DNA of 54,579 bases, taken from positions 1 to 54,579 of the forward strand of contig MFNE01000001.1 of the NCBI GenBank assembly GCA_001783695.1. Reading direction: 5' to 3'. The DNA comes from Candidatus Lambdaproteobacteria bacterium RIFOXYD2_FULL_50_16 (GTDB taxonomy: Bacteria > SAR324 > XYD2-FULL-50-16). Position numbers and translations under genes: made by a program. The notes under the pieces are model-generated. The model was given only the letters and a program-made list of their open reading frames with translations. It did no database searches and was not told the origin of the DNA. This document shows positions 23,099-40,015 of this stretch, piece after piece (position 1 is the first letter of the stretch; every line of letters begins with the position of its first letter).

Positions 23099-23506
23099 AT
23101 GCTGTTTAACTTCGGGGTGGCTTTAACCTTCTTGATCGTGATGGCGGGCTTCGTCGCTGGCAACCTGCTTGTGCAGTTGCTCCTTAGCCCACATAACAAC
23201 TACGATGCCAAGAAGATGCCTTATGACTGCGGCGAAGAGCCGGTGGGCTCTGGCTACCGACAGTATAACTTACGGTTTTACTTGGTCGCATTGGTTTTTG
23301 TGATCTTCGATGTGGAAATCGCGTTTATGTATCCAGTCACTGCTGTCTTTAAAGACCTAACCCAAGATGGTTGGGGACTGATGGCTTTTGTAGAAATCGC
23401 GATTTTTGTATTGATTCTGACGGTTGCCTTTGTTTACACCTGGAGCGAAGGGGGTCTGGATTGGATTCGTGAGCAGGTAAAACGGCCCACGTCGCCTAGG
23501 GAATAA
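23099..23506 (+). CDS. nuoA: NADH-quinone oxidoreductase subunit A
   Basis: A small membrane subunit at the peripheral/membrane arm interface of complex I. 135 residues from ATG 23099, with three hydrophobic segments and the conserved loop [16 protein letters not shown] carrying the switch-loop Cys, then [18 protein letters not shown]. The upstream frame continues to 22997 across the terminator, so I reject the longer form; the chosen ATG lacks a good ribosome-binding site. First gene of an eleven-gene operon. Confidence 0.9.
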
Positions 23507-23510
23507 GAAG

Positions 23511-23999
23511 ATGAACAACCTCTTACACAGTTTCGAGTCAGACGGCATTGTCTTGACTACTCTTGATCAAGCGCTCAATTGGACCAGGGCCAATTCTCTG
23601 TTTTACATGTTGTTTGGCTTGGCTTGCTGCGGGATTGAAATGATGCAAACCGGTGGCCCTCGTGGCGACCTGGACCGCTTCGGTTCGGTCCCCCGTGCTT
23701 CACCCAGACAGTCAGACTTAATGATTGTTGCCGGAACGGTAACCCTTAAGATGGCCAGCCGGGTTAAACGCCTTTACGACCAAATGGCCGAGCCTCGATA
23801 TGTGATTTCGATGGGCAGTTGCTCGAACACGGGTGGACTGTTTCAGTCGGGTTATTCAGTCTTGCATGGTGTGGACCGGGTAATTCCGGTAGATGTTTAT
23901 CTGCCCGGTTGCCCTCCAAGGCCCGAGGCGCTCACCTCTGCGTTGATCGAGATCCAAAAAAAGATCAAAGCCGAGCGTTACCTGCGCAAACAGAAGTGA
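23511..23999 (+). CDS. nuoB: NADH-quinone oxidoreductase subunit B
   Basis: Carries the terminal cluster N2, which passes electrons to quinone. The four ligands are visible: the tandem Cys pair in LACCGIEMM, Cys in MGSCSNTGG and Cys in PGCPPRP. 162 residues, soluble peripheral subunit. It starts four bases after nuoA and ends four bases before nuoC. Confidence 0.95.
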
Positions 24000-24003
24000 A
24001 CCT

Positions 24004-24531
24004 ATGAGCTTAGATACAAACGCAATCTTAGAGCGACTTAAAGCCCAAGCCCCGGCACTGCGGCTTGAGCTGCAAAGCGGGGCGGGCGACCTAGCCATTA
24101 AGGCAGAGCCCCATGACTTGGCCGAGCTAATGAAGCTTTGCAAAAGCGACCCAGAGCTTAAATTTGAATGTTTGGCCAGCCAAACCGCTAGCCATTATCC
24201 AAAGACCGAAACTACTGGGGAACATTTTAAACTTTATTATCACCTCTTAAGCCACAGTCTAAAACACCAATTAGTGGTGGTTATAGAGGCTTTGGGCTCT
24301 GCACCAGAGGTGGATTCGGTGGTTAGTGTTTGGAACGCAGCTAACTGGCTAGAACGAGAGACCTGGGACCTTTTAGGGGTTAGCTTTAAAGGGCATCCCG
24401 ACCTAAGGCGGATTATGAATCCCGAAGATTGGGAAGGGCACCCACTACGCAAAGATTACGTGATTCCGACCCAGTATCAAGACATCGACAACAAACCTTC
24501 GGAGATCGCCGAAAGTTTCAAGTTGAGTTAA
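24004..24531 (+). CDS. nuoC: NADH-quinone oxidoreductase subunit C
   Basis: 175-residue peripheral-arm subunit without cofactor. The family signature WLERETWDLLGVSFKGHPDL followed by RRIMNPEDWEGHPLRKDY is intact near the C-terminus. Separate from nuoD, that is, not the fused nuoCD form. Confidence 0.94.
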   Translation: MSLDTNAILERLKAQAPALRLELQSGAGDLAIKAEPHDLAELMKLCKSDPELKFECLASQTASHYPKTETTGEHFKLYYHLLSHSLKHQLVVVIEALGSAPEVDSVVSVWNAANWLERETWDLLGVSFKGHPDLRRIMNPEDWEGHPLRKDYVIPTQYQDIDNKPSEIAESFKLS

Positions 24532-24542
24532 GGATTAAAGGC

Positions 24543-25661
24543 ATGGGCAAGCTCAGAACAGAATTGATGACCATCAACATGGGTCCCCAACACCCTTCGA
24601 CCCATGGGGTAATCCGGTTTATCATCGATACCGATGGCGAGGTTATTCACCGCTGCGAGCCAGATGTGGGTTATCTGCACCGCTCTATCGAAAAAATTAC
24701 TGAACATTTGAGCTGGCAGGGGATTGTTCCCTTTACTGATCGGGTAGATTACCTTTGCGCAATGAACTCCAACTGGGCCTATGTGATGGCCGTGGAAAAG
24801 ATGATCGCAGTGGAGGTGCCGCGGCGCGCTGAATTTATTCGGGTAATGGTAGGTGAGCTCAACCGGATATCGAGCCACATGATCGCTATCGGCACCACGG
24901 ATATGGACATGGGAGCCTTCACCCCCTTTATCCAACTCTTGCGCGAACGCGAATATATTAACGACCTCCTTGAGATGGTAAGCGGGGCGCGGTTAACCTA
25001 TAATTACCTCTCCATCGGCGGGGTTAATTACGACATTCCTCGCAACTGGCTTTTTAAAGTAGAAGAGTTTTTGAATCATTTTGATCCCGCAATGGAACAA
25101 ATGAACCGGCTATGTACCTATAACCGGATCTTTATCAATCGCATGGCTAATCTGGCGCCGATTTCTAAAGAGTTGGCTTTTGACTATAACCTCGTAGGTC
25201 CGAACCTTCGTGGTTCGGGGGTTAAATCGGATGTCCGCCGAGACCAGCCTTATTCGGTATATTCTGAACTCGACTTTGAAATACCAGTCGGTGAGGGTTT
25301 TGGCGGGGAAGTGGGCGATTGTTACGACCGTTTTATGGTGCGGATCTTAGAGGTTCGTGAGTCGATCAAAATCCTTCGCCAATGCATCAAGATGATGCCC
25401 GAGGGCCCGATTCAAGCGAAGGTTAAAAACACCATTAAACCTCCAGAAGGCCACTTCTACTCACGCAGTGAAACCCCCAGAGGAGACACAGGCTATTTTA
25501 TTGAGTCAAGCGGGGGAACCTCGCCTTACCGCTTAAAGATTAGGTCAGGAAGTTTTACTGGAATTTCGATCACTCCCGCAATCTCCAAGGGTATCTTGAT
25601 CGCCGACCTAGTGGCGGTGATTGGCTCCTTGGATATTGTTGCACCCGAATTGGACCGATAA
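24543..25661 (+). CDS. nuoD: NADH-quinone oxidoreductase subunit D
   Basis: Forms the quinone pocket with NuoB. The ATG at 24543 follows AAGG and gives 372 residues, slightly shorter than the usual 385-415. The N-terminal quinone-site loop MGPQHPSTHGV and the C-terminal SETPRGDTGYFIESSGG are conserved. The longer open frame upstream of 24543 overlaps nuoC in another frame and is discarded. Confidence 0.94.
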   Translation: MGKLRTELMTINMGPQHPSTHGVIRFIIDTDGEVIHRCEPDVGYLHRSIEKITEHLSWQGIVPFTDRVDYLCAMNSNWAYVMAVEKMIAVEVPRRAEFIRVMVGELNRISSHMIAIGTTDMDMGAFTPFIQLLREREYINDLLEMVSGARLTYNYLSIGGVNYDIPRNWLFKVEEFLNHFDPAMEQMNRLCTYNRIFINRMANLAPISKELAFDYNLVGPNLRGSGVKSDVRRDQPYSVYSELDFEIPVGEGFGGEVGDCYDRFMVRILEVRESIKILRQCIKMMPEGPIQAKVKNTIKPPEGHFYSRSETPRGDTGYFIESSGGTSPYRLKIRSGSFTGISITPAISKGILIADLVAVIGSLDIVAPELDR

Positions 25662-25664
25662 GCC

Positions 25665-26915
25665 ATGATCATCGAACTCCTGACTTCGGTAGGAATCCCC
25701 GAGCTGGCCGCCAAATTTATTTTTGCCGGAGCAGTTGGGTTTTTGGCCATAAACTTCATCGCCGTTTATGCGGGTGTGGTTTCGGTAATCGAGCGCAAAG
25801 TGGCCGCCAAGATGCAGTCCCGAGTCGGACCCAACCGGGTTGGCCCTGGAGGTTGGCTTCAGTGGCTCGCTGATGGAATCAAGTTGATGTTAAAAGAGGA
25901 TATCCACCCTCACGGAGCGGATCACTTCTTATTTAACATGGCTCCCTTTTTAATCGTTTGCGGTGTGGCCGGGGCCTTTGCGGTACTTCCTTGGGGACCA
26001 GCCCACGCCATTGCGGCTGACCTTAACGTCGGGATTCTTTATTTTATATCGATCACCTCCTTAGTGGTTGTCGGCATTTTAATGGCCGGTTGGTCTTCAA
26101 ACAACAAATGGGCCTTGATCGGCGGGATGCGAGCCGCAGCCCAGATCGTTTCCTACGAGATTCCGGTAGCCATGGGATTGCTACCGGCAATTATGATTGT
26201 AGGCAGCCTGCAAGTATCGGCATTGACTGAGTCCCAAGGCTTTATGCCCTGGGACTGGACCGCTTTTGACAACCCCTTTGCGCTGCTCGGGTTTTTAGTC
26301 TTTTTGACTGGCTCTGTAGCCGAATCCAACCGCGCTCCCTTTGATTTACCAGAAGCCGAATCTGAGTTGGTCGCTGGCTTTTTTACCGAATACTCGGGTT
26401 TCCGCTTTGCCTGCTTCACCCTAGGCGAGTTTGCGGCCACTTGGGCGATTGGGGCGATTACCACCGCCGTCTATTTAGGGGGTGGTCAATTGCCTCCTTC
26501 CATGGCCGGGATGATCCCCCTTTCGATTGGGCTTTTTGTCCTAAAAACCATGTCAGTGGTTTTCTTGCTAATGTGGTTCCGCTGGACCTTGCCCCGCTTC
26601 CGTATTGATCAGATGATGGATTTCAGTTGGAAATACCTACTACCGCTTTCGCTGGTGGCCTTTTTCGGGCAAGCGATTTACATCTTGATCTCGTGGGACA
26701 GCCCGGCGATGCAAACCATTGTTTCACACCTGTTGGCGCTGGCGGTGTTAGGGGTCATTTTCTTGTTTGCTGGAAGAGTAGCCTACAACATCAAGATTCA
26801 ACTGATCCCGATCAACACGCTATCTACCGAGATTGGCCCCCTCGAACGCGCTGGCAAAATTGCCCCGCCGCCAGCAGTGGTCGAGGAAGTCGAAACGGCT
26901 GAGGAGGGCGCATGA
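25665..26915 (+). CDS. nuoH: NADH-quinone oxidoreductase subunit H
   Basis: Membrane subunit that forms the quinone entry channel. 416 residues with about eight or nine helices; hallmark segments are ERKVAAKMQSRVGPNRVGPGG and the acidic loop AESNRAPFDLPEAESELVAG. It is about 70 residues longer than E. coli NuoH (325), in part a hydrophobic addition and a charged, Pro/Glu-rich tail after about 380. The last four bases overlap nuoI (ATGA). Confidence 0.94.
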   Translation: MIIELLTSVGIPELAAKFIFAGAVGFLAINFIAVYAGVVSVIERKVAAKMQSRVGPNRVGPGGWLQWLADGIKLMLKEDIHPHGADHFLFNMAPFLIVCGVAGAFAVLPWGPAHAIAADLNVGILYFISITSLVVVGILMAGWSSNNKWALIGGMRAAAQIVSYEIPVAMGLLPAIMIVGSLQVSALTESQGFMPWDWTAFDNPFALLGFLVFLTGSVAESNRAPFDLPEAESELVAGFFTEYSGFRFACFTLGEFAATWAIGAITTAVYLGGGQLPPSMAGMIPLSIGLFVLKTMSVVFLLMWFRWTLPRFRIDQMMDFSWKYLLPLSLVAFFGQAIYILISWDSPAMQTIVSHLLALAVLGVIFLFAGRVAYNIKIQLIPINTLSTEIGPLERAGKIAPPPAVVEEVETAEEGA

Positions 26916-27547
26916 ACAGGAAACCCAGATTGAGCTTTAAAGCCTATTTCGGGCAAATCGTCAGCGGGGTGCAGACCATGTTCGAGGGGATGAGTATCTC
27001 CCTAGCCAGTACCTTTTTGAAGGTGCAAACCGTTGAATATCCAGACGTTGACATTAGCAGCCGCGAGTCCTTGCGCCAGTCCACCTACAAGGGGAACATG
27101 GCGGGTATGCCTGAGAACTATCGTGGGATTCTAAAAGTCGATTTGGATATTTGTACGGCTTGTTTGATTTGCATGAAGGCCTGTCCGATCGACTGCATTG
27201 CTATTACTAACGTCAAATGCGACAAACGCAAGTTTAACGGTAAGTCGGGTAAAGCCGCAGTCCAGACCCGAGCGGCAACCCGCTTTGATATTGATATTGG
27301 CAAGTGTATGTTTTGTGGACTTTGTGTAATCCCCTGCCCGACTGGAGCTATTGCCCATTCGAAGATCTTCGAGATGAACCGGGGCAGTTTGGCCGAGCTT
27401 GTCGAGCGGTTTGTTACCCCTGAACAGGCAGCCAAACACGAAGCACGCGCTTTAGAGATTGAAACGGAAGAAGCCGAAAAAAAGGCCGCTAAAGCCAAAA
27501 CTGACGCCGAAGCCAAGGCTAAAGTTGAACCTAAAGGGGAAGCATGA
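26912..27547 (+). CDS. nuoI: NADH-quinone oxidoreductase subunit I
   Basis: Peripheral ferredoxin-like subunit with two [4Fe-4S] clusters: CTACLICMKACP (Cys81, 84, 87, 91) and CMFCGLCVIPCP (Cys132, 135, 138, 142). 211 residues; the last 35 are a Lys/Glu/Ala-rich charged helix not needed in other bacteria. With NuoE, F and G absent, this would be the electron entry point for reduced ferredoxin, an inference from known ferredoxin-dependent complex I variants. Confidence 0.94.
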   Translation: MNRKPRLSFKAYFGQIVSGVQTMFEGMSISLASTFLKVQTVEYPDVDISSRESLRQSTYKGNMAGMPENYRGILKVDLDICTACLICMKACPIDCIAITNVKCDKRKFNGKSGKAAVQTRAATRFDIDIGKCMFCGLCVIPCPTGAIAHSKIFEMNRGSLAELVERFVTPEQAAKHEARALEIETEEAEKKAAKAKTDAEAKAKVEPKGEA

Positions 27548-28041
27548 CACAGTCAGTCTTTTTTGCGATTTTTTCGGGCCTGACCTTAGTCACTGCCGGG
27601 ATTGTGGCGTTGAATCAAAACCTGATTCGTGCCGCCTTTGCCCTGTTTTTCTGCCTCTTCGCGGTTGCTGGGGTCTATGTCACCCTAGGCGGCGACTTTG
27701 TGGCCATGGTCCAATTGATGGTTTACGCTGGCGGGGTCGCAATTTTATTAACCTTCGGAGCGATGCTAACCGCTGATGTTAGCCAACCTTCTGGGTCTAA
27801 CCTAAACTTCCAAGGGGTTTGGGCGATGATTGGGGGAGTGTCGTTTTTTAGTGTTTTATACTACGTACTCGAAGAGACCCAGTGGCCCCTAAAGGGCACC
27901 AATTATTTGGACCCTACTACCAAAGAACTGGGCAAACTTTTACTCAAAGACTATTTGCTACCCTTTGAGGTGATCTCCTTTTTGCTCTTGATCGCTATGG
28001 TGGGCGCGGTTTACTTGGTTTTAAAGGGGGAACAGGAATGA
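27544..28041 (+). CDS. nuoJ: NADH-quinone oxidoreductase subunit J
   Basis: 165-residue membrane subunit with five hydrophobic segments; the conserved helix FVAMVQLMVYAGGVAILLTF around residues 56-75 is the pi-bulge helix of the family. Overlaps nuoI and nuoK by four bases each. Confidence 0.92.
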   Translation: MTQSVFFAIFSGLTLVTAGIVALNQNLIRAAFALFFCLFAVAGVYVTLGGDFVAMVQLMVYAGGVAILLTFGAMLTADVSQPSGSNLNFQGVWAMIGGVSFFSVLYYVLEETQWPLKGTNYLDPTTKELGKLLLKDYLLPFEVISFLLLIAMVGAVYLVLKGEQE

Positions 28042-28349
28042 GCCTTTCTTTGGTGCTAGCCATTTCCGCTGGCCTGTTTGCTTTGGGCACGATGATGTTT
28101 GTGGTCAAAAAAAATCTAATTGCGATTTTGATGGGGGTCGAACTCCTAATGAACGCAGCGGCCTTAAACTTTATGGGTTTTTCCTATTACAGTCCGGCCA
28201 AGGGGCACCCCCTAGACGGACAGGTTTTCGCGTTGTTTGTGATCTTGATCGCCGCCGCCGAAGCAGTTGTGGCCTTAGGGATAGCCATTGCGGTTTATAA
28301 AGAGTTCGGCCATGTTTCGGCAGACAAACTCAGCCAGTTGGAGGGCTAG
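28038..28349 (+). CDS. nuoK: NADH-quinone oxidoreductase subunit K
   Basis: 103-residue, three-helix membrane subunit with the conserved Glu residues in LIAILMGVELLMNAA and AEAVVALGIAI, which are part of the proton path. The stop is directly followed by the nuoL ATG. Confidence 0.93.
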   Translation: MSLSLVLAISAGLFALGTMMFVVKKNLIAILMGVELLMNAAALNFMGFSYYSPAKGHPLDGQVFALFVILIAAAEAVVALGIAIAVYKEFGHVSADKLSQLEG

Positions 28350-30437
28350 ATGATCTCGATGATTCCCCTAGTCCCCATTTTGCCGCTGGTTGGAGCCCTA
28401 ATCATTGGGTTATTTGGCAAACGAATTCAGGCTACTATCGGTGAGTTTGCCACGGGAGTTTTAGGTTGTGCTATGCCCGGTTTGGCTGCATTAATAAGTT
28501 TTGGTAGTTTTTTCGAGTTAATAGCTCGCCCAGCAACAGACCGGATTATTGTATCCCACTTGGCCCCCTGGGTCAGTGTAGCTGATTTCCAGGTCGAGTG
28601 GGCCTTCCGTTATGACCCCTTATCGGCGATGATGTTAATGATCATCACCGGCATTGGTACCCTGATCCATGTCTATTCCATGGGGTACATGCACGAGGAC
28701 CCTAGTTACTGGCGCTTCTTTAGCTATATCAACCTGTTTTTGGGGGCGATGTTGCTCTTGGTTTTGGGCGACAACCTTTTGATTATGTTCCTCGGTTGGG
28801 AAGGGGTAGGGCTTTGTAGTTACTTGTTGATTGGTTTCTGGTTTAACAACCCCGACTACGCCTATGCTGGACGAAAAGCCTTTATTGTCAACCGCATTGG
28901 TGACTTAGGTTTTTTAACCGGAATGTTTACCTTGATCCTCTTCTCGGCGGCCAACTTTGAGGTGGTGACCTTAAGCTTCGGGGAATTACAAGGTCGCATG
29001 GATACCCTGGCCCAATATACGCTCTGGGGATTCCCGGTTTTAGAGGTCGCCGCCTTTTGTTTCTTTGTGGGCGCGATTGGCAAGTCGGCGCAGATCCCTT
29101 TGTACGTCTGGTTGCCCGACGCCATGGCCGGACCGACTCCGGTTTCGGCCTTGATTCACGCGGCCACCATGGTAACCGCCGGGGTTTATATGATCGCCCG
29201 GATGTACTTTATGTACAGTCTCGCTCATTTTACCCTTGAGTTTATCGCGATTATCGCCGCCCTGACCTGCTTTTTCTCGGCCACCATTGGCATGGCCCAG
29301 TTCGACATTAAAAAGGTCTTGGCCTACTCGACCGTAAGCCAGTTGGGTTATATGTTTTTAGCCATGGGGGTTGGTGCCTACTCGGCAGGAACCTTCCACC
29401 TCTTGACCCATGCCGCCTTTAAAGCTGCACTGTTTATGGGCTCTGGCTCGGTGATTATCGCTATGCACCACGAGCAAGACATGCGCAAGATGGGTGGGCT
29501 CTTAAAAAAGATGCCTATTACCGGCTGGGCCTTCATTTTCGCCACTTTGGCCATTATGGGGTTCCCTGGCACCTCGGGTTTTTTCTCTAAAGACGAAATC
29601 CTAGAAAAGGCTTTTGAAGAAAGTGTTTGGCTTTGGTTAGTTGGTTTTATTGTCGCGGGGATGACCAGCTTCTATATGTGGCGGGCCGTCTTTATGACCT
29701 TTTTTGGTGAATTCAAAGGGGATCACCATACTTGGGAACATTGCCACGAGCAGCCCAAGCGGACCGTTGTGCCCATTGCGATTTTAGCAGCCTTGGCCCT
29801 AAGTTTGGGATTCTTAAACGTCCCCGACTTTATGGGCGGCGATTACAGCTTTTCCAGATACTTAAGCCCAGTGGTTAAAAACCTGGAAGAGGCGCAGGTC
29901 CACGGAATGCCCGACTCGATCGACGGCGAACAGCACGCCCCGGTCCACGCCGAGGAACATGGGGATTTGTTGATAGAGGTGGGTTTGATGGTGGGTTCGG
30001 TCACTTGGACCCTCTTGACCGCCTTCTTGGCGTATTACCTTTACTTGGTTAATCCCAAGGCTCGCGAAGCCCTTATGAGCCGGGCAGGACCACAAGCGGT
30101 CTTTAAAGTGCTTAATAATAAGTACTATGTGGACGAATTTTACGACCTAGTAGTAGTCGGCCCCCTGAAGAAGTGTTACGCCTTTATGGGTGACTTCGAT
30201 AAATACGTGGTCGATGGTGCAGTGAACTTGGCTGGGTATGTAGGACGTGGCTTAGGAATTTTAGCCGGGTTTTTAGACCAGCATATTGTGGACGGCGCGG
30301 TCAACGAGGTCGCATGGGCCTCGCAAACAACAGGAAAAGGCTTTAGTCTGCTCCAATCTGGGCGAATTCAAGCCTTAGTAGGAGCTACCCTGGTGTTTTT
30401 CGCGGCGGTGTTAACCGTTTGGATTGTTTATCTCTAG
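28350..30437 (+). CDS. nuoL: NADH-quinone oxidoreductase subunit L
   Basis: Distal antiporter-like proton pump, 695 residues. The core motifs are GWEGVGLCSYLLIGFW, GKSAQIPLYVWLPDAMAGPT with the conserved Lys, LIHAATMVTAGVYMIAR, and KKVLAYSTVSQLGYMFLA. The C-terminal lateral helix region is present, with the recurrent YYVDEFYD segment near 590. Confidence 0.94.
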   Translation: MISMIPLVPILPLVGALIIGLFGKRIQATIGEFATGVLGCAMPGLAALISFGSFFELIARPATDRIIVSHLAPWVSVADFQVEWAFRYDPLSAMMLMIITGIGTLIHVYSMGYMHEDPSYWRFFSYINLFLGAMLLLVLGDNLLIMFLGWEGVGLCSYLLIGFWFNNPDYAYAGRKAFIVNRIGDLGFLTGMFTLILFSAANFEVVTLSFGELQGRMDTLAQYTLWGFPVLEVAAFCFFVGAIGKSAQIPLYVWLPDAMAGPTPVSALIHAATMVTAGVYMIARMYFMYSLAHFTLEFIAIIAALTCFFSATIGMAQFDIKKVLAYSTVSQLGYMFLAMGVGAYSAGTFHLLTHAAFKAALFMGSGSVIIAMHHEQDMRKMGGLLKKMPITGWAFIFATLAIMGFPGTSGFFSKDEILEKAFEESVWLWLVGFIVAGMTSFYMWRAVFMTFFGEFKGDHHTWEHCHEQPKRTVVPIAILAALALSLGFLNVPDFMGGDYSFSRYLSPVVKNLEEAQVHGMPDSIDGEQHAPVHAEEHGDLLIEVGLMVGSVTWTLLTAFLAYYLYLVNPKAREALMSRAGPQAVFKVLNNKYYVDEFYDLVVVGPLKKCYAFMGDFDKYVVDGAVNLAGYVGRGLGILAGFLDQHIVDGAVNEVAWASQTTGKGFSLLQSGRIQALVGATLVFFAAVLTVWIVYL

Positions 30438-30476
30438 TCAACGGACCAAAGGTCTCGCAAACAAACTGAGGTTGTG

Positions 30477-31985
30477 ATGAGTCATCTTCTATCCTGGGTC
30501 GTCTTTTTGCCCCTGATCCCCATCCCGCTTCTGTTCTTGCTACCCAAGGACAAAGGCAAGTGGCTAGCGCTAGCGGTTACTCTGGCCGATTTTGTCATAG
30601 GGTTGCCGTTGATCCTCGGCTTTGACCGGGCTATGCCGGGGGTAAGCAACCCAGGTGAGATGCAGTTCGTTGAGCGGGCTACTTGGATACCAAGCCTTGG
30701 GGTCGAATATTATATCGGCATCGACGGCCTATCGGTAACCATGATCCTTCTAACCCTGTTAATTGGGGTCTTGGCGGTTTTAGCTAGCTGGAACATAGCC
30801 AAACACGAAGCGGGATACTGGTCGATGTTTTTACTGCTGCAAACCGCCATGTTAGGGGTGTTTGTCTCGTTAGACCTGATCCTCTTCTTCGTATTTTGGG
30901 AGGTTATGCTCTTCCCCATGTACTTCCTAATCGGAATCTGGGGTGGGCCAAGGCGGGTTTACGCTGCCATCAAATTCTTTTTATACACCCTTTTTGGGGG
31001 TGTGGGTATGCTCCTAGCCTTTATCGCCATTTGGTACTACGCGCCTGGGCAGCGCACTTGGGACATGATCGAAATCTTGCAACGAGTTTCTGCGGGTGGA
31101 CATTTCAACGGCCCTGATATTTTTGGCGTCGAATTTGCCAAGATGATCTTTGTGGTCTTGTTTGTGGGCTTCGCCATCAAGGTGCCGATCTTCCCGTTCC
31201 ACACTTGGTTGCCTGACGCCCACGTTGAAGCGCCCACCGCCATATCGGTTATCCTGGCCGGGGTGCTTCTTAAAATGGGAACCTACGGGATGCTTCGAAT
31301 CAACTTTACCCTGTTCCCCGAAGCTTTTCACTGGTTCAGAACCTTCTTGGTGGTCCTGGCGGTAATCAACATCGTTTACGGGGCCCTCTGCGCCTTGGCG
31401 CAGTCGGACCTTAAAAAAATGGTGGCTTACTCCTCGGTGAGCCACATGGGCTTTATCCTCTTAGGCATGGCGGCAGCCACCCCACAGGGGATGAACGGTG
31501 CTATGTTGCAGATGTTTAACCACGGAACCATCACGGCCATGCTCTTCCTTTTGGTAGGCGTCATCTACGACCGCGCCCACCACCGCCAAATCGACGGGTT
31601 CGGCGGCATGGCCTCGGTTATGCCTAAATTCGCCGCCCTGACCAGCTTCGCCTTTATGGCGGCTATTGGCCTACCTGGACTTTCAGGCTTTGTTTCAGAA
31701 CTTCTGATTTTGTCAGGTAGTTTTAAGGTTTATCAGGTAGCCACTATCATCGCTGGGTTAGGGATCATCTTTGGAGCCGGGTACATGCTCTGGAGTTACC
31801 AGCGGGTCTTTTTTGGCAAGGTTAACGAGAAGTATGCCGATTTTAAAGATGTAAACGTGATTGAGGTTGCCAGCTTGGTACCCTTGTTGGTGATAGTGGT
31901 TTATCTCGGTATTTTCCCAAACAACCTGATCGTCTTTTTCGAGCAGTCGATGAACCACATCAGTGAGCTTCTTCTGGCGAGGTAG
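30477..31985 (+). CDS. nuoM: NADH-quinone oxidoreductase subunit M
   Basis: Antiporter-like proton pump of about 502 residues from ATG 30477 (GTG 30474 is also in frame). Motifs: FWEVMLFPMYFLIGIWGG, KVPIFPFHTWLPDAHVEAPT, and LKKMVAYSSVSHMGFILLG. TGAGG lies before the start; 39 bases separate it from nuoL. Confidence 0.94.
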   Translation: MSHLLSWVVFLPLIPIPLLFLLPKDKGKWLALAVTLADFVIGLPLILGFDRAMPGVSNPGEMQFVERATWIPSLGVEYYIGIDGLSVTMILLTLLIGVLAVLASWNIAKHEAGYWSMFLLLQTAMLGVFVSLDLILFFVFWEVMLFPMYFLIGIWGGPRRVYAAIKFFLYTLFGGVGMLLAFIAIWYYAPGQRTWDMIEILQRVSAGGHFNGPDIFGVEFAKMIFVVLFVGFAIKVPIFPFHTWLPDAHVEAPTAISVILAGVLLKMGTYGMLRINFTLFPEAFHWFRTFLVVLAVINIVYGALCALAQSDLKKMVAYSSVSHMGFILLGMAAATPQGMNGAMLQMFNHGTITAMLFLLVGVIYDRAHHRQIDGFGGMASVMPKFAALTSFAFMAAIGLPGLSGFVSELLILSGSFKVYQVATIIAGLGIIFGAGYMLWSYQRVFFGKVNEKYADFKDVNVIEVASLVPLLVIVVYLGIFPNNLIVFFEQSMNHISELLLAR

Positions 31986-31990
31986 GAATT

Positions 31991-33418
31991 ATGTTTAACA
32001 CGCTACCCCATCTAGCCCACCTGCCAGCACACCTTGTGCTGTCTTTGGGATTGCTCTTTTTCTTCCTTGGAAAGACCATCCCTGGGATCAAGAAGCTTCC
32101 GGCTACCGCTATTTTTATTGCCATGCTGGCTTTAGCAGCAGCTTTAGAAGCGAGCGAAACTGGAAGTCACGACCTCTTTTTTGGGATGGTCCAAACCGAT
32201 AGTTTCTCTAGGTTATACAACCAACTCTATTTTATTGTTAGTGCTCTAGTGGTGGTGATGCTCCATTTCTCGGACGAAATGGACCGTGAAAACGACTGGG
32301 AGAACTACGGGTTACTTAGCTGTTTGATTCTGGGCATGATGTTTATGACCAGTGCCTCACACCTTTTAATGGCCGTAATCGCCATTGAGATGGTTTCGAT
32401 TCCTAGTTACTTGTTGGTCGCTCTTAACCGAAAAAACCCGGCCTCGAAAGAAGCAAGTATGAAATATATCCTCTTTGGCAGTTTTGCTACTGGGGTTATG
32501 CTTTACGGGATGTCATTCCTCTTCGGGATGACCGGCAGTCTGACCTTTGCCGATATCTGGAACGGGTTAGGGAGTGAATCGGTAGGGACTCCTATTTACT
32601 ATCTCGCCATTGGTTTTACCTTGGCTGGTATGTCCTTTAAAGTGGCTGCGGTTCCGTTTCATTTTTGGTGCCCCGATGCATACCAAGCCGCCCCCACGCC
32701 GATTACTGCCTTTTTGTCGGTCGCGCCCAAGGTAGCAGGCTTGACCTTGATGATGCGGTTTTTTGCAGACCATCTGCCGGTACAAGGCGATTCCTTGACC
32801 CAGATGTTGTCGATTGTGGCTATTGTCACCATGGTGGTTGGCTCCTTCGCCGCCCTTAAACAAACCGATATCAAACGTCTTCTGGCTTATAGTTCAATAG
32901 CCCACGCCGGATTTTTGATGATGGGTGTGGCGGTGTTAAACACCGATGGGCGCCAAGCGGTTTTCTTTTACATCCCCATTTACATCTTGATGAACCTAGG
33001 GGCCTTTATGGCCATTATTTACTTGGCTCAAGATCACGACTATAAAATCTCTGCCTTTAACGGGGCGGTTAAATCCAACCCCCTATTAGTAACCGCCTTT
33101 GCCGTCTGCACCTTGTCCTTGGCAGGGATACCGCCTTTTGCTGGGTTTGTGGGGAAATTTTATCTCTTTAAAGTGGCCATGGAAAAAGGTCTTTATCCGA
33201 TGATCCTTGCCGCGGGTATCTCTACGGTAGTTTCCCTTTATTTCTACGTAAGTCTATTAAAGGTGATGATTATCGATCAAGAGGCTCGAACCTTCTCCCC
33301 CTTGGGTTCCAAGGTGCCCGTGGTTTTTGTGTCTCTTTGCGCGTTGCCTCTAGTATTTTTAGGGTTATATTGGGTGCCACTGGTGAACTGGGCCGACAAG
33401 GTCAGGCTTTTCCAGTAG
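31991..33418 (+). CDS. nuoN: NADH-quinone oxidoreductase subunit N
   Basis: Third antiporter-like subunit, 475 residues. Conserved segments are AIEMVSIPSYLLVALNRK, FKVAAVPFHFWCPDAYQAAP and IKRLLAYSSIAHAGFLMMG. Last gene of the operon; nuoE, nuoF and nuoG do not follow, and the next gene, a PFOR, has a separate promoter. Confidence 0.94.
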   Translation: MFNTLPHLAHLPAHLVLSLGLLFFFLGKTIPGIKKLPATAIFIAMLALAAALEASETGSHDLFFGMVQTDSFSRLYNQLYFIVSALVVVMLHFSDEMDRENDWENYGLLSCLILGMMFMTSASHLLMAVIAIEMVSIPSYLLVALNRKNPASKEASMKYILFGSFATGVMLYGMSFLFGMTGSLTFADIWNGLGSESVGTPIYYLAIGFTLAGMSFKVAAVPFHFWCPDAYQAAPTPITAFLSVAPKVAGLTLMMRFFADHLPVQGDSLTQMLSIVAIVTMVVGSFAALKQTDIKRLLAYSSIAHAGFLMMGVAVLNTDGRQAVFFYIPIYILMNLGAFMAIIYLAQDHDYKISAFNGAVKSNPLLVTAFAVCTLSLAGIPPFAGFVGKFYLFKVAMEKGLYPMILAAGISTVVSLYFYVSLLKVMIIDQEARTFSPLGSKVPVVFVSLCALPLVFLGLYWVPLVNWADKVRLFQ

Positions 33419-33468
33419 TTTAAGCAACCCCTACCCTAAATAACTGTCCTGTAGTTGCCCCTTTTGGT

Positions 33469-33496
33469 TTGACTTTACCTTGAGGGGGACTATAGA
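33469..33496 (+). promoter_or_regulatory. Predicted promoter of the PFOR gene
   Basis: TTGACT (33469-33474), a 16-base spacer and TATAGA (33491-33496), 70 bases before the start. In the leader a perfect 6-bp GC-rich hairpin (CCGCCA 33518-33523 / TGGCGG 33527-33532, loop CTC) could influence mRNA stability or translation. Confidence 0.55.
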
Positions 33497-33565
33497 CTGG
33501 TCTAGCCGATTTGCCCTCCGCCACTCTGGCGGAACGCCCAGGAACAGACACATCCCAGGTAGTCC

Positions 33566-36500
33566 ATGAGCAGCCCAAAATACCCCGGTACCCGTACCAC
33601 AACCAACGGTAATACCCTTGTTGCGCTTTATACTGAAGCGCGGATTGCGGAAGCCGGAATCTTTTATCCGATCACCCCTTCGACTGAAATGGGTGAGTTG
33701 TTCCAACATTCTTACTCGCAAGGTGAACTCAACGTTTTTGGCGATGCTAAAATCGCCCTTGAGGCCGAAGGGGAGCATGCCGCTCAATCGGGGTCGATTG
33801 CGGCTTCGGTGACCGGCAAACGGGTGGTTAACTTTACCTCTGGACAGGGAGTGGTTTACGGTAGTGAACCCTACTATCATGCGCCCTCGAAGTTGAGTAC
33901 CATGGTGCTAAACATCGCCGCACGGGCCTTGACTAAGTCAGCCCTAAACGTACATTGCGGACACGACGACGTTTACACGGTGCTAGATACGGGCTGGACG
34001 ATGCTGTTTGCTAAAGACGCCCAGCAGGCTTCAGACCAAGCGATGATTTTGCGAAAGGTCAACGAATTATCCCTAAATCCTGGGATCAACATTCAAGACG
34101 GTTTTTTAACCAGCCACTTAGAGCGCACCTTCCGCATCCCCGAAGCCGGGCTGATCCGCGAATTTTTGGGCCGTTCAGACGACTTGATTGATTGCCCCAC
34201 CGAGGCCCAACGCGAACTTTTTGGGCCTAAACGCCGCCGAATCCCAATTGGAATGGACCTAAAAAACCCTTTATTGTTGGGCTCGGTCCAAAACCAAGAG
34301 CATTACATGAACGGCGTTATTGCTCGCCGAAATAACTTTACCGAACAAATTTTAGGTTTTTTAGAAGACGCCTATAAAGAGTTTGGCGAGTTAACGGGCC
34401 GCCACTACGGCCTGATAAGCCAGCACAACTGCGAAAAAGCGGAGACCGTTTTTATCTCCTTGGGCAGTTCTGCTGAAAACATGGAAGCCGCAGTGGATTA
34501 TCTCAAGGCCACTCGCGGAGAAGAAGTGGGTGTGATTCACTTAAACGTGATCCGCCCCTTCCCAGAAAAAGCGGTAATCGAAGCGTTGCGTGGCAAAAAG
34601 AACGTGATTGTCCTAGAGCGGATGGACGACCAAACCGCTTCGGACAACCCGATGGCCCGCGACATCCGCACCGCCTTGTCTAAAGCCGCCACCAACCACC
34701 GAACCAACGCTTTTGCAGACCTACCAAGCCTTTCGCCAGATGAAGTTCCGCGAATCTTTAGTGGGGTCTATGGTTTAGGTAGTCGTGACTTCCGCCCAGA
34801 GGGCGTGCTGGGTGCCTACGAATTTGTCACCGGCAAAATCAAGCGCACCGACGGCAAATCGGCCGCCGATGGGGTCAGCTTCATTTATATCGGGGTGGAC
34901 CATCCCTACTCGGTTATCTCTGAAGATACCCCAAGTTTACTCCCTGACGGCGCCATTGCCATTCGCTTCCACTCGATTGGCGGCTGGGGCGCGATTACCA
35001 CGGGCAAAAACCTGGGTGAAGTAATTGGATCGATTTCTAGTGTTATCGCTAAAAATCAAAACCGTATCGGCGACGACGGACAGCCCGAAGAGATCTTCCA
35101 TGTCAGCGCCAACCCTAAATACGGTTCCGAGAAAAAAGGGGCCCCGACCAACTATTTCTTGGTCGCCGCGCCTGAACGGATTCGGGTCAATTGTGACCTT
35201 CGCCATGTTAACGTGGTGCTTTGTTGCGACCCTAAAGCCTTCACTCACACCAACCCCTTAGAGGGTATGGCCGATGGTGGGGCGTTGATTATTGAAACCG
35301 ATGAATCGTCCTCAGCGGGCCTCTGGAGCCGCATCCCCAAGCGTTACCGCGCCGACATAATCAAGCGCAAGATTCGCCTTTACGGCCTAGCTGGCTTCCA
35401 AATCGCCCACAAAGCGACTGACCGTGAAGACCTCCAGTACCGAATGCAAGGCAACAGCTTTCTGGGAGCCTTTTTCAAGGTTTCTCCACTGTTAGAAAAA
35501 TACGGGATCAGCGAAGACGAATTCAAAAAAATCGTAGAAGCCCAATACAACAAGAAGTTTGGCCGCTTTGGTGAGGCCGTAGTGAAGTCGAACATGACCG
35601 TTATGATCGACGGCTTCTCTGGGGTTTGGCAGGCCGAATACGGGGCCTTAGATGCCCCGGACCGTAGCTTGATGCGCGGAGACACCTTGATGCCTGTTAG
35701 CGGGGCGACCCGCTTCGGGGCCGATACCCTGGTCGCTCAGCCTCAAAAACACCCCTACAAAACCTTAGCGAAATACGACAGTGAATTCCGCATTGGTTTG
35801 GGTTATAATCAACCAGCTTCGGCGTTGGCCTCGACCGGGGTTATGGCCTCAGCGACGGCGGCAACCAACTCCAAATACGTCTCTCGACGCCGAGTGCCGA
35901 TTTATTACCCAGAAAACTGTACCCAGTGTATGGCCTGTATCGCCTCTTGCCCAGATACAGCTATGCCCAACACCTCCCAAGACGTGGCCGTGGTACTCCA
36001 GACGGCTATTGGCAACTATGTTTCTGACGAAAGCGCCCGCGAGACGCTGATGGGTGCGGTAGAAGCGATGGACCAAAGCTTGCGGAAAAAGATGTTGACT
36101 GCAGTGGAAGACAAAAAGGCAGCGCCCCCGTCCTTAACCCAATTGGTTGAAGGCGAATTAGCCGGCATTGATATTTCGGCCAACTCGAAAGCCGAGTTGT
36201 TAAGCATTTTAGGCAAAGTGCCCTTTGCTTACGCCAAGTCGCGGACGATTTTCGAGATCCCCGAGAAAAAAGAGGCTGGTGCCGGTGGTTTGTTCACCAT
36301 CTTAATCTCAGATCTTTGTAAGGGTTGTGGCGAATGTGTCCAAGAATGTGGGGAACACCAAGCTTTGAAGATGGAGCCCGAAACCGAACAAATCAACGCC
36401 GATTTAGCTACGGGGATCCGCTTTTTAGACCTGTTACCTGAGACGCCACAAAAGTTTTTAGGGAAATATGACTACGAAAACCCCCTAGAAACCCGCGCAG

Positions 36501-38119
36501 CAGTCTTGCACAACCATTTGATGGTCAGGAGCAACTACGAAGCCATTGTGAGTGGTGACGGCTCTTGTGCCGGTTGTGGCGAAAAAACCATCTTACGTGC
36601 GGTGGCCAGCATTACTGAAGCGGTCATGCGGCCTTTGTACCACCAAAAAGCGGGCCGTCTCACTGAAAAAGCCAAGGTTTTAGCCACCGAAGGGGCGGCT
36701 AAACTCAAGGCACTCAAAGAAAAAGACACCGATGCTTACCAGTGGTGGGCCAAGTCGGTGAAGCATTGCCTGCTTAATTTAGGCGGGGAAAACGAAAAAG
36801 ACACGGATGCCCGAATCGAAGAAGGCTTTATGGGGGGGGACCCAGATTTGATCAAAGTGATTGATATGGTGCTTCGCCAGGATGCCTTTAACCACCGCGA
36901 TTTGCGTGCTGTGGACGGACGGTATTCCAACGGGATGTCTGTATTGATGATGTCTAGCTCGACTGGTTGTAACTCGGTTTATGGCTCGACCCACCCCAAC
37001 AACCCACACCCTTACCCCTGGATGAACAGCCTCTTCCAGGACAGCCCAACCTTAGCCTGGATCTTTGGCGAGACCATGATCATGGACCATGCTAAACGCA
37101 GTGTGATCCCTGAACGCTTGGCCGACGCCTTGCTTTCTGGCAAAGGTTGCAGCAAAACCGATTATTTCCATTTGACCCACTTCTCGGATCATTACATGAC
37201 CGATCAAGAGGTCTTGGAACTGCCCAAGGCTTGGGCGATTGGTGGCGACGGGGCAATGGGAGATATTGGGTTCCAAAACCTGTCCAAGGTGATGTTGCAA
37301 GGGCGGCCAAACGTCAAGTGTTTGATGTTAGATACCCAGGTTTACTCAAACACGGGCGGGCAAAACTCAGATTCGTCGATTATGCCCGGCGGCTACGACA
37401 TGAACCAACATGGCGCTGCTACCGAAGGTAAATTGATTGAACGAAAAGAAGTCGCCTCAATCTTTATGGCAGGCCACGGTAGCCCCTATGTCGCCCAGGT
37501 CAGTATGGCCGACTCGGCGGCGATGTACCGCAGTGTGATGGACGCCATTGCCTATAGAGGTACCGCGTTCCTCCAAGCCTTTACCACCTGCCAGCCAGAA
37601 CACGGCGTGGCCGACAATATGTCCACCGCCCAAGCCCAGAAGGTTCGAGATTCCAGGGCTATGCCCCAAGTGGTCTTCGATCCTAACCTTGGCGAACGCT
37701 ACGAGTTAGCCCTGTCGGTCAAAGGCAACCCCAACCCTAAAAAGGATTGGATGCAAAAGAAAGGACCCAACGGAAATACTTACAACTACACGGTTGCGCA
37801 CTGGGCTACCAGTGAACAGCGTTTCCGCAAGCACTTCTTCTCGGTTAAGCCGGGTGAAGAAAGCAAGCTGGTGCATTTAGATGAAGTATTACCTAAGGTT
37901 AGCCAGCAGGACATCCATCACCGCCGTTATCTGGACCCCAACGCCACCTGTCATGTTCCTGAAAAGGGCGTGTATATTATGATGGAAAAGGATGACAAAA
38001 TGGTTCCCATGGGTATTAGTCGCCAGTTGGTGCTCTTCTGCGTTGAGCGCCGCAAAAACTGGCGTATGATCCAGTCGATGGCTGGTATTCAGTCGGAGGA
38101 CTACGGCACCCCTGCCTAG
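33566..38119 (+). CDS. nifJ: Pyruvate:ferredoxin (flavodoxin) oxidoreductase, enlarged
   Basis: Oxidises pyruvate with CoA to acetyl-CoA and CO2 and reduces ferredoxin or flavodoxin. All domains of the single-chain enzyme are visible: N-terminal pyruvate domain with YPITPSTEMGE, ferredoxin clusters CTQCMACIASCP (from Cys785) and CKGCGECVQECG (from Cys918), the proximal-cluster CAGCGE (Cys1001, with a later Cys1342 in TCQPEHG) and the thiamine-diphosphate site GGDGAMGDIGF (1226-1236) with QVYSNTGGQNS. At 1517 residues it is about 300 longer than the usual 1170-1230: extra sequence lies between the two ferredoxin clusters, between the proximal cluster and the TPP site, and in the N-terminal half. 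Substrate could be another 2-oxo acid. Confidence 0.92.
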   Translation: MSSPKYPGTRTTTNGNTLVALYTEARIAEAGIFYPITPSTEMGELFQHSYSQGELNVFGDAKIALEAEGEHAAQSGSIAASVTGKRVVNFTSGQGVVYGSEPYYHAPSKLSTMVLNIAARALTKSALNVHCGHDDVYTVLDTGWTMLFAKDAQQASDQAMILRKVNELSLNPGINIQDGFLTSHLERTFRIPEAGLIREFLGRSDDLIDCPTEAQRELFGPKRRRIPIGMDLKNPLLLGSVQNQEHYMNGVIARRNNFTEQILGFLEDAYKEFGELTGRHYGLISQHNCEKAETVFISLGSSAENMEAAVDYLKATRGEEVGVIHLNVIRPFPEKAVIEALRGKKNVIVLERMDDQTASDNPMARDIRTALSKAATNHRTNAFADLPSLSPDEVPRIFSGVYGLGSRDFRPEGVLGAYEFVTGKIKRTDGKSAADGVSFIYIGVDHPYSVISEDTPSLLPDGAIAIRFHSIGGWGAITTGKNLGEVIGSISSVIAKNQNRIGDDGQPEEIFHVSANPKYGSEKKGAPTNYFLVAAPERIRVNCDLRHVNVVLCCDPKAFTHTNPLEGMADGGALIIETDESSSAGLWSRIPKRYRADIIKRKIRLYGLAGFQIAHKATDREDLQYRMQGNSFLGAFFKVSPLLEKYGISEDEFKKIVEAQYNKKFGRFGEAVVKSNMTVMIDGFSGVWQAEYGALDAPDRSLMRGDTLMPVSGATRFGADTLVAQPQKHPYKTLAKYDSEFRIGLGYNQPASALASTGVMASATAATNSKYVSRRRVPIYYPENCTQCMACIASCPDTAMPNTSQDVAVVLQTAIGNYVSDESARETLMGAVEAMDQSLRKKMLTAVEDKKAAPPSLTQLVEGELAGIDISANSKAELLSILGKVPFAYAKSRTIFEIPEKKEAGAGGLFTILISDLCKGCGECVQECGEHQALKMEPETEQINADLATGIRFLDLLPETPQKFLGKYDYENPLETRAAVLHNHLMVRSNYEAIVSGDGSCAGCGEKTILRAVASITEAVMRPLYHQKAGRLTEKAKVLATEGAAKLKALKEKDTDAYQWWAKSVKHCLLNLGGENEKDTDARIEEGFMGGDPDLIKVIDMVLRQDAFNHRDLRAVDGRYSNGMSVLMMSSSTGCNSVYGSTHPNNPHPYPWMNSLFQDSPTLAWIFGETMIMDHAKRSVIPERLADALLSGKGCSKTDYFHLTHFSDHYMTDQEVLELPKAWAIGGDGAMGDIGFQNLSKVMLQGRPNVKCLMLDTQVYSNTGGQNSDSSIMPGGYDMNQHGAATEGKLIERKEVASIFMAGHGSPYVAQVSMADSAAMYRSVMDAIAYRGTAFLQAFTTCQPEHGVADNMSTAQAQKVRDSRAMPQVVFDPNLGERYELALSVKGNPNPKKDWMQKKGPNGNTYNYTVAHWATSEQRFRKHFFSVKPGEESKLVHLDEVLPKVSQQDIHHRRYLDPNATCHVPEKGVYIMMEKDDKMVPMGISRQLVLFCVERRKNWRMIQSMAGIQSEDYGTPA

Positions 38120-38800: not shown

Positions 38801-40015
38801 CTAAAAGGGATACCCCACCCAAGCGATGACCTGCTGGCCCTCTTCACCAAAAGCCACATCCACCCGTAGGACCAAGTCGGATAAAAGCGCCCGCAACCCC
38901 ACTCCCCGGCTTGCTTTTAGGTTTTCTAACAGCGATTGGTCCCGGTGAGGGCTCACTTGACCTAATTCATAAAAAAAAGCCAACTGCCAAGCGTTAAAGA
39001 TACCTTTAGCCCAAATCCAATCAAACGGGACCCAGTCTTCGGCTAGATACCAGCGGTGTTCTAAACCCAGAAATAGGCTGTGCGAATCATAAAACCGTTG
39101 TTGTGGAAACGCGCGTAACCGTTGGGTGCCCCCTAAGGCGGTGGCGTTCCCTCGATGCACATCCTCCTGGCGCTGCCGGTAGAGTTGATCATTTAACACT
39201 TGACAGCCGGGGTAAAGGGCTTCTTCACATTGGTACTTCGCCGGGTCCACCACCCCTGGGCGGGTGATTCCCGCTTCCGAATAAAATCCATAAAGCACCA
39301 AAATCTGTTCCTTGGGCACCAAGGGCACAAACCCCGACAGATGATAATCCCACTGGTACCCATCGCCTAAAGCAGGTTCGTTTTGTTTAACCGTCCAATG
39401 CTCCACCTGAGCCCGATACCCTATTCTTGGGTCTCGTCTATTGTCAGTATCGTCTAAATAGATACCGGTTATGGCCGCGTGGGAACCTAATTTATTCGAA
39501 AGTCTTGAGGTGTATTCGTTGCCTTGGGGATCAATAATAGCAGTGGGTTCGGCATAGATTTGCGTATCAATGCGGTACAATTCTAGTTGGTCCTCAAAGA
39601 GGTGCAAACTGAGTTCGCCCCCATAAACCAAAATTCGGTTGGAGCGCAGCACAAACTTTTCGTCGGGCTTAGAATCCGGCCCTCTGGCCCAGCGCTCAAT
39701 CCCCGCGCCTTGGGTCCTAAGGTAGATCGGCGAAAAGGTGAGTTTCGGGCTAAACAGGGGCAAATCCGTGATTAACAATAAATCCCCCGTAAAATCGCCC
39801 TCTGTATGTCCTACAATGGCGTCAACTTCGCTATCTTTGATCCTTGTCGCCGCCGCTCCTACCCCAACTCCAGTGCCGATTCCGGGGATAGAAATGTAAA
39901 CAGGGAAAATAAAATACGACATGGTCGATGGTCTAACGGGTCGCCTATCGAAAAAGAAGGCGGATGCCGACTGACTCCAAACTAGCAGCAATAAACCTAA
40001 AATCAATTGGCGCAT
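38801..40015 (-). CDS. BamA/Omp85-like outer-membrane beta-barrel protein
   Basis: 404 residues with a signal peptide (about 1-19). The C-terminal barrel shows the Omp85 hallmarks: IYLDDTDNRRDPRIGY near 185-200, the LGGTQRLRAF loop at 295-303 that corresponds to the VRGF/Y motif, alternating hydrophobic strands, and a terminal Phe. No POTRA repeats fit in the short N-terminal part, so it is not BamA itself but a POTRA-less surface-antigen-like protein (D15 superfamily), possibly an outer-membrane pore, lipase-linked or secretion partner. It is co-transcribed with, and overlaps by 13 bases, the AraC-type regulator gene upstream. Confidence 0.8.
   Translation of the reverse strand: MRQLILGLLLLVWSQSASAFFFDRRPVRPSTMSYFIFPVYISIPGIGTGVGVGAAATRIKDSEVDAIVGHTEGDFTGDLLLITDLPLFSPKLTFSPIYLRTQGAGIERWARGPDSKPDEKFVLRSNRILVYGGELSLHLFEDQLELYRIDTQIYAEPTAIIDPQGNEYTSRLSNKLGSHAAITGIYLDDTDNRRDPRIGYRAQVEHWTVKQNEPALGDGYQWDYHLSGFVPLVPKEQILVLYGFYSEAGITRPGVVDPAKYQCEEALYPGCQVLNDQLYRQRQEDVHRGNATALGGTQRLRAFPQQRFYDSHSLFLGLEHRWYLAEDWVPFDWIWAKGIFNAWQLAFFYELGQVSPHRDQSLLENLKASRGVGLRALLSDLVLRVDVAFGEEGQQVIAWVGYPF

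Follow-up and report, generated by a model that had tools for sequence, protein, structure and literature searches.

Eleven nuo genes that lack the genes of the N-module (nuoE, nuoF and nuoG) are followed directly by a gene of the pyruvate:ferredoxin oxidoreductase (PFOR) family in a bacterium of the phylum SAR324, and this order is retained in four genera. Judging from gene content, the encoded machinery is best read as a ferredoxin (or PFOR):quinone complex I that would be fed by pyruvate and may be reversible. It is probable that this N-module-free complex I exchanges electrons with ferredoxin, that the adjacent PFOR serves as its dedicated or main donor source, and that NADH is handled separately. 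The components, the 11-subunit class and the idea of PFOR–ferredoxin–complex I coupling are already known. What is new is the conserved physical nuo–PFOR linkage in SAR324, together with parallel PFOR–rnf operons; no earlier description of either was found in a literature search whose scope left out most subscription journals.

The operon lies in a window of 54,579 nucleotides (the whole stretch of DNA analysed, contig C1) from a SAR324/Lambdaproteobacteria MAG of 3.14 Mb, 54 contigs and 97.9% completeness. The closest named relative is Candidatus Lambdaproteobacteria RIFOXYD2_FULL_56_26, with a PFOR that is 75% identical.

The nuo operon

Eleven contiguous genes on the same strand, nuoABCDHIJKLMN, extend from the ATG of nuoA at 23099 to the stop codon of nuoN at 33418, and the PFOR gene lies next to them:

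23099..23506, +, nuoA (PF00507, 4e-31; conserved first gene of the operon)
23511..23999, +, nuoB, N2 cluster subunit (PF01058, 2e-28; above the NuoB model cut-off)
24004..24531, +, nuoC (PF00329, 8e-40)
24543..25661, +, nuoD (PF00346, 4e-86; sole NuoD in the genome)
25665..26915, +, nuoH (PF00146, 3e-107)
26912..27547, +, nuoI (Fer4 domains; alignment of 13 NuoI)
27544..28041, +, nuoJ (PF00499, 8e-34)
28038..28349, +, nuoK (55-72% identical copies at the equivalent position in relatives)
28350..30437, +, nuoL (62-72% identical in 9 family genomes)
30474..31985, +, nuoM (71-84% identical in 9 family genomes)
31991..33418, +, nuoN (59-71% identical in 9 family genomes)
33419..33565, +, nuoN–PFOR gap (147 bases)
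33566..38119, +, long-form PFOR-family gene, 1517 aa (Pfam, PDB matches, cysteine ligands)

Subunits A–D and H–J were recognized by Pfam and all eleven by tblastn, in identical order in relatives. The operon contains no nuoE, nuoF or nuoG, and no intergenic gap within it is big enough for any of them; as one complete nuoABCDHIJKLMN set, it belongs to the 11-subunit N-module-free class. Pfam domains, tblastn gene order, gap sizes and cysteine ligands all bear out the preliminary description, which had reported this gene set with a PFOR-family gene beside it.

NuoI is likely the electron entry point. In an alignment of 13 NuoI sequences, it displays two intact [4Fe-4S] motifs, a basic inter-cluster segment with a net charge of +5, and a charged C-terminal tail. 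The charge was rejected as proof of ferredoxin docking, as that of the inter-cluster segment varies from 0 to +5 within the family and is only suggestive.

The 11-gene type, with no EFG inside the array, was found in 10 of 10 genomes of the source family, and NuoD in the nine relatives is 68-78% identical. Versions with 14 subunits occur in other families of the phylum (e.g., locus L207, which carries the 14-subunit order). A second, divergent EFG-less nuo array was observed at L197, L199 and L200 (genomes G028, G030 and G031), and partially at L198; its NuoD is 44-46% identical, and G028, G030 and G031 also hold another NuoD.

NuoEFG homologues outside the operon

The preliminary description had hinged on the absence of nuoEFG genes elsewhere that would complete a conventional NADH complex. 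The genome search recovered one nuoE–nuoF–‘nuoG’ cluster, of the Stn transhydrogenase type and not an NADH module. Besides its single NuoD, the source genome encodes one NuoF-fold protein (PF01512) and one NuoE above the cut-off (PF01257), whose genes adjoin that of a 974-aa ‘NuoG’ on contig C43 (L002:4955-10169), the nuo operon being on C1. The NuoE-like protein has 177 aa. The NuoF-like protein (572 aa) combines FMN, SLBB and NADH_4Fe-4S domains with a C-terminal 2[4Fe-4S] part, and the assembly shows a stretch of N within its gene. The 974-aa protein comprises 2Fe-2S, a GltD-like FAD/NADPH part, a 4Fe-4S dicluster and Molybdop_Fe4S4. By these domains, the cluster fits the published definition of the Bfu family and, within it, the Nfn-Bfu type (PMC9304861).

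In the PDB, the 974-aa protein matches 9BOV, 8OH5 and 9N5U best; of these, 8OH5 is StnABC of Sporomusa ovata (PMC10482914). The NuoF-like protein scored higher against chain B of 8OH5 (699 bits) than against Thermus Nqo1 (379 bits). The C43 cluster shares with StnABC the domain order, the extra Fe-S clusters, and residues K170 and R239 of StnC, K170 being strictly conserved and needed for activity; unlike StnABC, it carries Ile in place of C114, a position at which two StnC homologues have Val or Ile, and its large subunit is shorter (974 aa vs 1172) (PMC10482914). The C43 genes are thus candidates for an electron-bifurcating transhydrogenase of the StnABC/Nfn-Bfu type. Orthologues of StnABC are present in all four genera with the nuoN–PFOR order. 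A rubrerythrin gene follows the cluster (L002:4484-4936).

A conventional complex I completed by nuoEFG from elsewhere could be ruled out, because the C43 cluster matches StnABC. No conventional NuoE, NuoF or NuoG was found in the source genome, an absence that at 97.9% completeness is not absolute, and the complex does not match the 14-subunit form, in which NuoEFG accompany or complete it. Nor does it conform to the Nuo-Bfu complex of the Geobacter type, where BfuABC lies inside the nuo cluster; here, the Bfu genes are on C43 and the nuo genes on C1. Furthermore, an Rnf complex is unlikely in the source genome, because the PF01512 search detects RnfC in relatives and returned only the Stn-type match here. 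Reading the C43 homologues as a transhydrogenase corrects a likely misannotation, and the name ‘NADH dehydrogenase’ is probably wrong for the N-module-free enzyme.

The downstream PFOR gene

A promoter and terminator scan found no terminator-like site in the 147-base gap; a weak promoter-like match at 33469-33498 comes from a scan at chance level (16 found against 13.2 expected). The encoded protein carries POR_N, PFOR_II, POR and Fer4 domains (Pfam) and a TPP domain, its top PDB matches are PFORs, and all the expected cysteine ligands for three [4Fe-4S] clusters are present, which makes it a member of the single-chain PFOR superfamily. Its score on the canonical PFOR equivalog TIGR02176 was 343 bits against a cut-off of 911, which places it in a distinct long subfamily. 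Pyruvate as its substrate, named in the earlier statement that this gene makes reduced ferredoxin from pyruvate, we infer from the missing E1-alpha pyruvate dehydrogenase and the separate KorAB described below.

Across the genome collection, the confirmed candidate stretches of the long subfamily number 305; the best 80 of them are 58-75% identical over nearly the full length and come from Acidobacteria, Verrucomicrobia, Planctomycetota, Bacteroidia, Acidimicrobiia and others. Its members measure 1517-1660 aa as open frames, so that the 1517 residues once singled out as notable are normal. Three insertions stand out as the largest in comparison with canonical PFOR, at residues 801-855, 869-892 and 1017-1124. 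They are present in all of the approximately 80 relatives inspected and largely also in the rnf-associated long PFORs, and identity to the window residue averages 0.37-0.47 in them, compared with 0.65-0.74 in the catalytic parts. Outside SAR324, complex I genes lie within 10 kb of a long PFOR at only 4 of 78 loci. In an AlphaFold2 model (residues 740-1517, pLDDT 85.3), the insertions are mainly helical; Foldseek of the C-terminal half returned PFORs first at low TM (0.36-0.45), and no docking domain of a known kind was recognized in the model. The extra length was thus rejected as a complex I adaptation, because some 80 relatives from many phyla share it and almost none of them has nuo in its vicinity; for the same reason, length and insertions provide no evidence of the docking on NuoI/NuoB that had been suggested for the extra domains.

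Conservation of the linkage and PFOR genes in rnf operons

PFOR directly follows nuoN in four genera: that of the source (G000), G051, G049 and G050. Across these genera the PFORs are 70-75% identical, and adjacency retained at this level of divergence makes chance proximity very unlikely. In the tree, they form one clade with the PFOR of G047 (support 1.0). The long PFOR of G047 is on short contigs, with nuoN not found upstream, and no PFOR adjoins the nuo arrays of G044-G048 in the stretches read. G043 represents a fifth genus; a PFOR of canonical type there shares the strand of nuoN and is located 7.4 kb further downstream (L048:7723-19901, G043:C28), the interval holding a large TPR-type gene and others; this layout may represent an insertion into, or a replacement of, the nuo–PFOR arrangement.

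Rnf is another ferredoxin-driven pump, and here too PFOR genes are found. Eight SAR324 genomes, from three families, have a PFOR-family gene directly behind rnfB, at nine loci in all; rnfC comes next in 8 of the 9. The order rnfB–PFOR–rnfCDGEA occurs in G049 (L045:9671-19191, C7), where RnfC, RnfD and RnfA score above the NCBIfam cut-offs, and in G030 (L043:1200-12266, C9). Similar arrangements are present in G018 (two loci), G028 and G031 and, on truncated contigs, in G029, G008 and G020 (further loci: L044, L253-L257, L262). An extra PFOR-like piece lies upstream of rnfB in G028, G031, G018 and G020. By gene order, then, two different predicted ferredoxin-driven pumps have PFOR genes attached to them within one phylum.

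Physiological setting

The source genome encodes a KorAB-type (2-oxoglutarate:ferredoxin-type) oxidoreductase, recovered by family search, and a candidate type II NADH dehydrogenase (NDH-2, PF22366). No convincing E1-alpha pyruvate dehydrogenase was found: a search confined to the E1-alpha family gave matches of 21-31 bits, to genes whose sequence and neighbourhood point to transketolase or DXS. Pyruvate and 2-oxoglutarate thus appear to be oxidized in this organism with ferredoxin as the acceptor. Such oxidation needs an outlet that oxidizes ferredoxin, for which the N-module-free complex I is the obvious candidate. A soluble ferredoxin is absent from the nuo operon, and a genome search confined to the Fer4_7 family yielded a nif-specific protein as the sole small 2[4Fe-4S] ferredoxin. 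One copy of haem-copper oxidase subunit I and, judged from the ORF sequences, alternative complex III-like genes were also found, and the remaining gene content is consistent with ferredoxin-based central metabolism.

Both dsrA (566 bits) and nifH (464 bits) are present, with dsr-type and nif neighbours, respectively. Two loci on contig C38 (L251, L252) and one on contig C43 (L229) carry the nif genes, accompanied by nif-specific ferredoxin III, and dsrAB together with dsrMKJOP-like genes. From its name, the order XYD2-FULL-50-16 would correspond to Group 1 SAR324, which is mostly heterotrophic, RuBisCO being confined to Group 2D (PMC9031357). The source genome looks like a Group 1 SAR324 resembling a diazotrophic sulfur metabolizer; the study that defined the groups mentions dsr, and the term ‘nitrogen fixation’ is absent from it (PMC9031357).

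Proposed electron pathway and alternatives

In the pathway that we favour, the long PFOR would convert pyruvate and CoA to acetyl-CoA and CO2 and, as the dedicated or main source for complex I, supply reduced ferredoxin. Electrons would pass from ferredoxin to the two [4Fe-4S] clusters of NuoI, on to NuoB, and to quinone at NuoD/H, and the 11-subunit complex would pump protons during quinone reduction. NADH would be handled separately by the type II NADH dehydrogenase, and the StnABC-type bifurcating transhydrogenase would balance NADH, NADPH and ferredoxin. Through the nuo–PFOR pairing, the cell can probably conserve energy directly from pyruvate. The pathway is supported by the nuo arrays without EFG in all ten family genomes, set against 14-subunit versions in other families of the phylum, and by the Stn-type character of the sole NuoF-fold match. 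The nuoN–PFOR order in four genera, all of them with StnABC orthologues, the downstream PFOR of G043 and the rnf–PFOR loci also count in its favour, as do the lack of a convincing E1-alpha, the KorAB-type enzyme, the NDH-2 candidate and the published precedents (PMC11238625, PMC8887894). Against it count the ferredoxin search, with a nif-specific protein only and none in the operon, the rarity of long PFORs near nuo in other phyla, and a possibly reversed direction in a diazotrophic sulfur metabolizer. The ferredoxin-dependent complex I paired with PFOR of the preliminary description thus stands as to the missing N-module and the linkage, without the docking by extra domains.

Running in reverse, complex I would draw on quinol from sulfur oxidation and, driven by the proton-motive force, deliver reduced ferredoxin to nitrogenase and to biosynthesis, in which PFOR and KOR would act as carboxylases, similar to the role proposed for Nitrospina NUO-2 (PMC3578206). 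The nifH and dsrA genes with their neighbours and the presence of both PFOR and KOR fit this direction, but the mostly heterotrophic character of Group 1, with RuBisCO only in Group 2D (PMC9031357), and the PFOR–rnf operons of relatives, which suggest catabolic use of ferredoxin, make it unlikely. It is very improbable that StnABC-like proteins dock on the 11-subunit complex, so that NADH and NADPH also feed it. Although Nuo-Bfu complexes exist (PMC9304861), StnC contains a NuoG-like part and StnABC orthologues accompany all four nuo–PFOR genera, described Nuo-Bfu systems encode Bfu within the nuo operon and not on a separate contig as here, K170 of StnC is conserved, and the ‘NuoG’ has a GltD insertion and matches free-standing transhydrogenases best (8OH5, 9N5U), not the NuoG of complex I.

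Gene order also bears on closer and looser associations of PFOR with complex I. The adjacency in four genera, the PFOR genes within rnf operons and the lack of a general ferredoxin in the Fer4_7 search would fit a PFOR that docks on NuoI/NuoB and hands over its electrons with no ferredoxin in between; the insertions, however, are common to relatives without nuo nearby and less conserved than the catalytic parts, and the model revealed no known docking domain, which leaves such docking extremely unlikely. A wider version, in which SAR324 PFORs belong to ferredoxin-driven pumps as physical pyruvate:quinone and pyruvate:NAD+ supercomplexes that channel electrons with no diffusing ferredoxin pool, is quite improbable; if true, one lineage would rely on N-module-free complex I and others on PFOR between rnfB and rnfC, with proton or sodium pumping. 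Conversely, the neighbourhood could be incidental, with PFOR feeding mainly nitrogenase or biosynthesis and complex I served by another donor. Long PFORs are common in organisms without nuo nearby, and G047 and the nuo arrays of G044-G048, within the short contigs and stretches read, lack the adjacency; against this, the order is kept over four genera and paralleled by the rnf–PFOR and G043 arrangements, and we give an incidental neighbourhood hardly any credence.

Relation to known systems

The favoured coupling of PFOR, ferredoxin and complex I has been proposed for Desulfitobacterium hafniense, which likewise has nuoABCDHIJKLMN without NuoEFG and in which rotenone blocks growth on pyruvate or lactate; PFOR was named as the donor there from co-expression, whereas here its gene lies directly 3' of nuoN (PMC11238625). 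The natural donor of 11-subunit complex I has been described as an open question, as no common donor could be found (PMC11238625). A PFOR behind complex I, kept across genera and mirrored by rnf–PFOR operons, is genetic evidence for pyruvate-derived ferredoxin as the donor, and the SAR324 nuo–PFOR array offers a concrete test system. Feeding of complex I by PFOR and ferredoxin is supported genetically in Synechocystis; cyanobacterial NDH-1 is also N-module-free and takes electrons from ferredoxin, but has extra ferredoxin-delivery subunits and resides in photosynthetic membranes (PMC8887894). The Nuo-Bfu of Geobacter and others, likewise a pump of the complex I type, takes ferredoxin as one of its donors; BfuABC is encoded inside its nuo operon and NADH is co-oxidized (PMC9304861). 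Here, the Bfu/Stn genes lie apart from nuo and encode an NADPH domain. Nitrospina NUO-2, a variant also proposed to exchange electrons with ferredoxin, keeps modified NuoF and NuoG, and its reverse running was proposed for carbon fixation (PMC3578206). The portion of the Melioribacter roseus report consulted describes an 11-gene set, ndhABCDHIJKLMN, with a donor such as ferredoxin proposed, in a facultative anaerobe with alternative complex III; within that portion, the array is linked to other genes and no PFOR linkage is described (PMC3534657).

Other genes of the window

Downstream of PFOR, on the opposite strand, an ORF at 38801-40015 encodes an apparently exported protein of 404 aa with no Pfam match; in G030, a relative with 29% identity is encoded 3 kb upstream of that genome's second nuo array without EFG (L199:3-1016). 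The window also encodes, at 14039-15835, a protein of 598 aa that consists mostly of pentapeptide repeats, with nine Pfam stretches.
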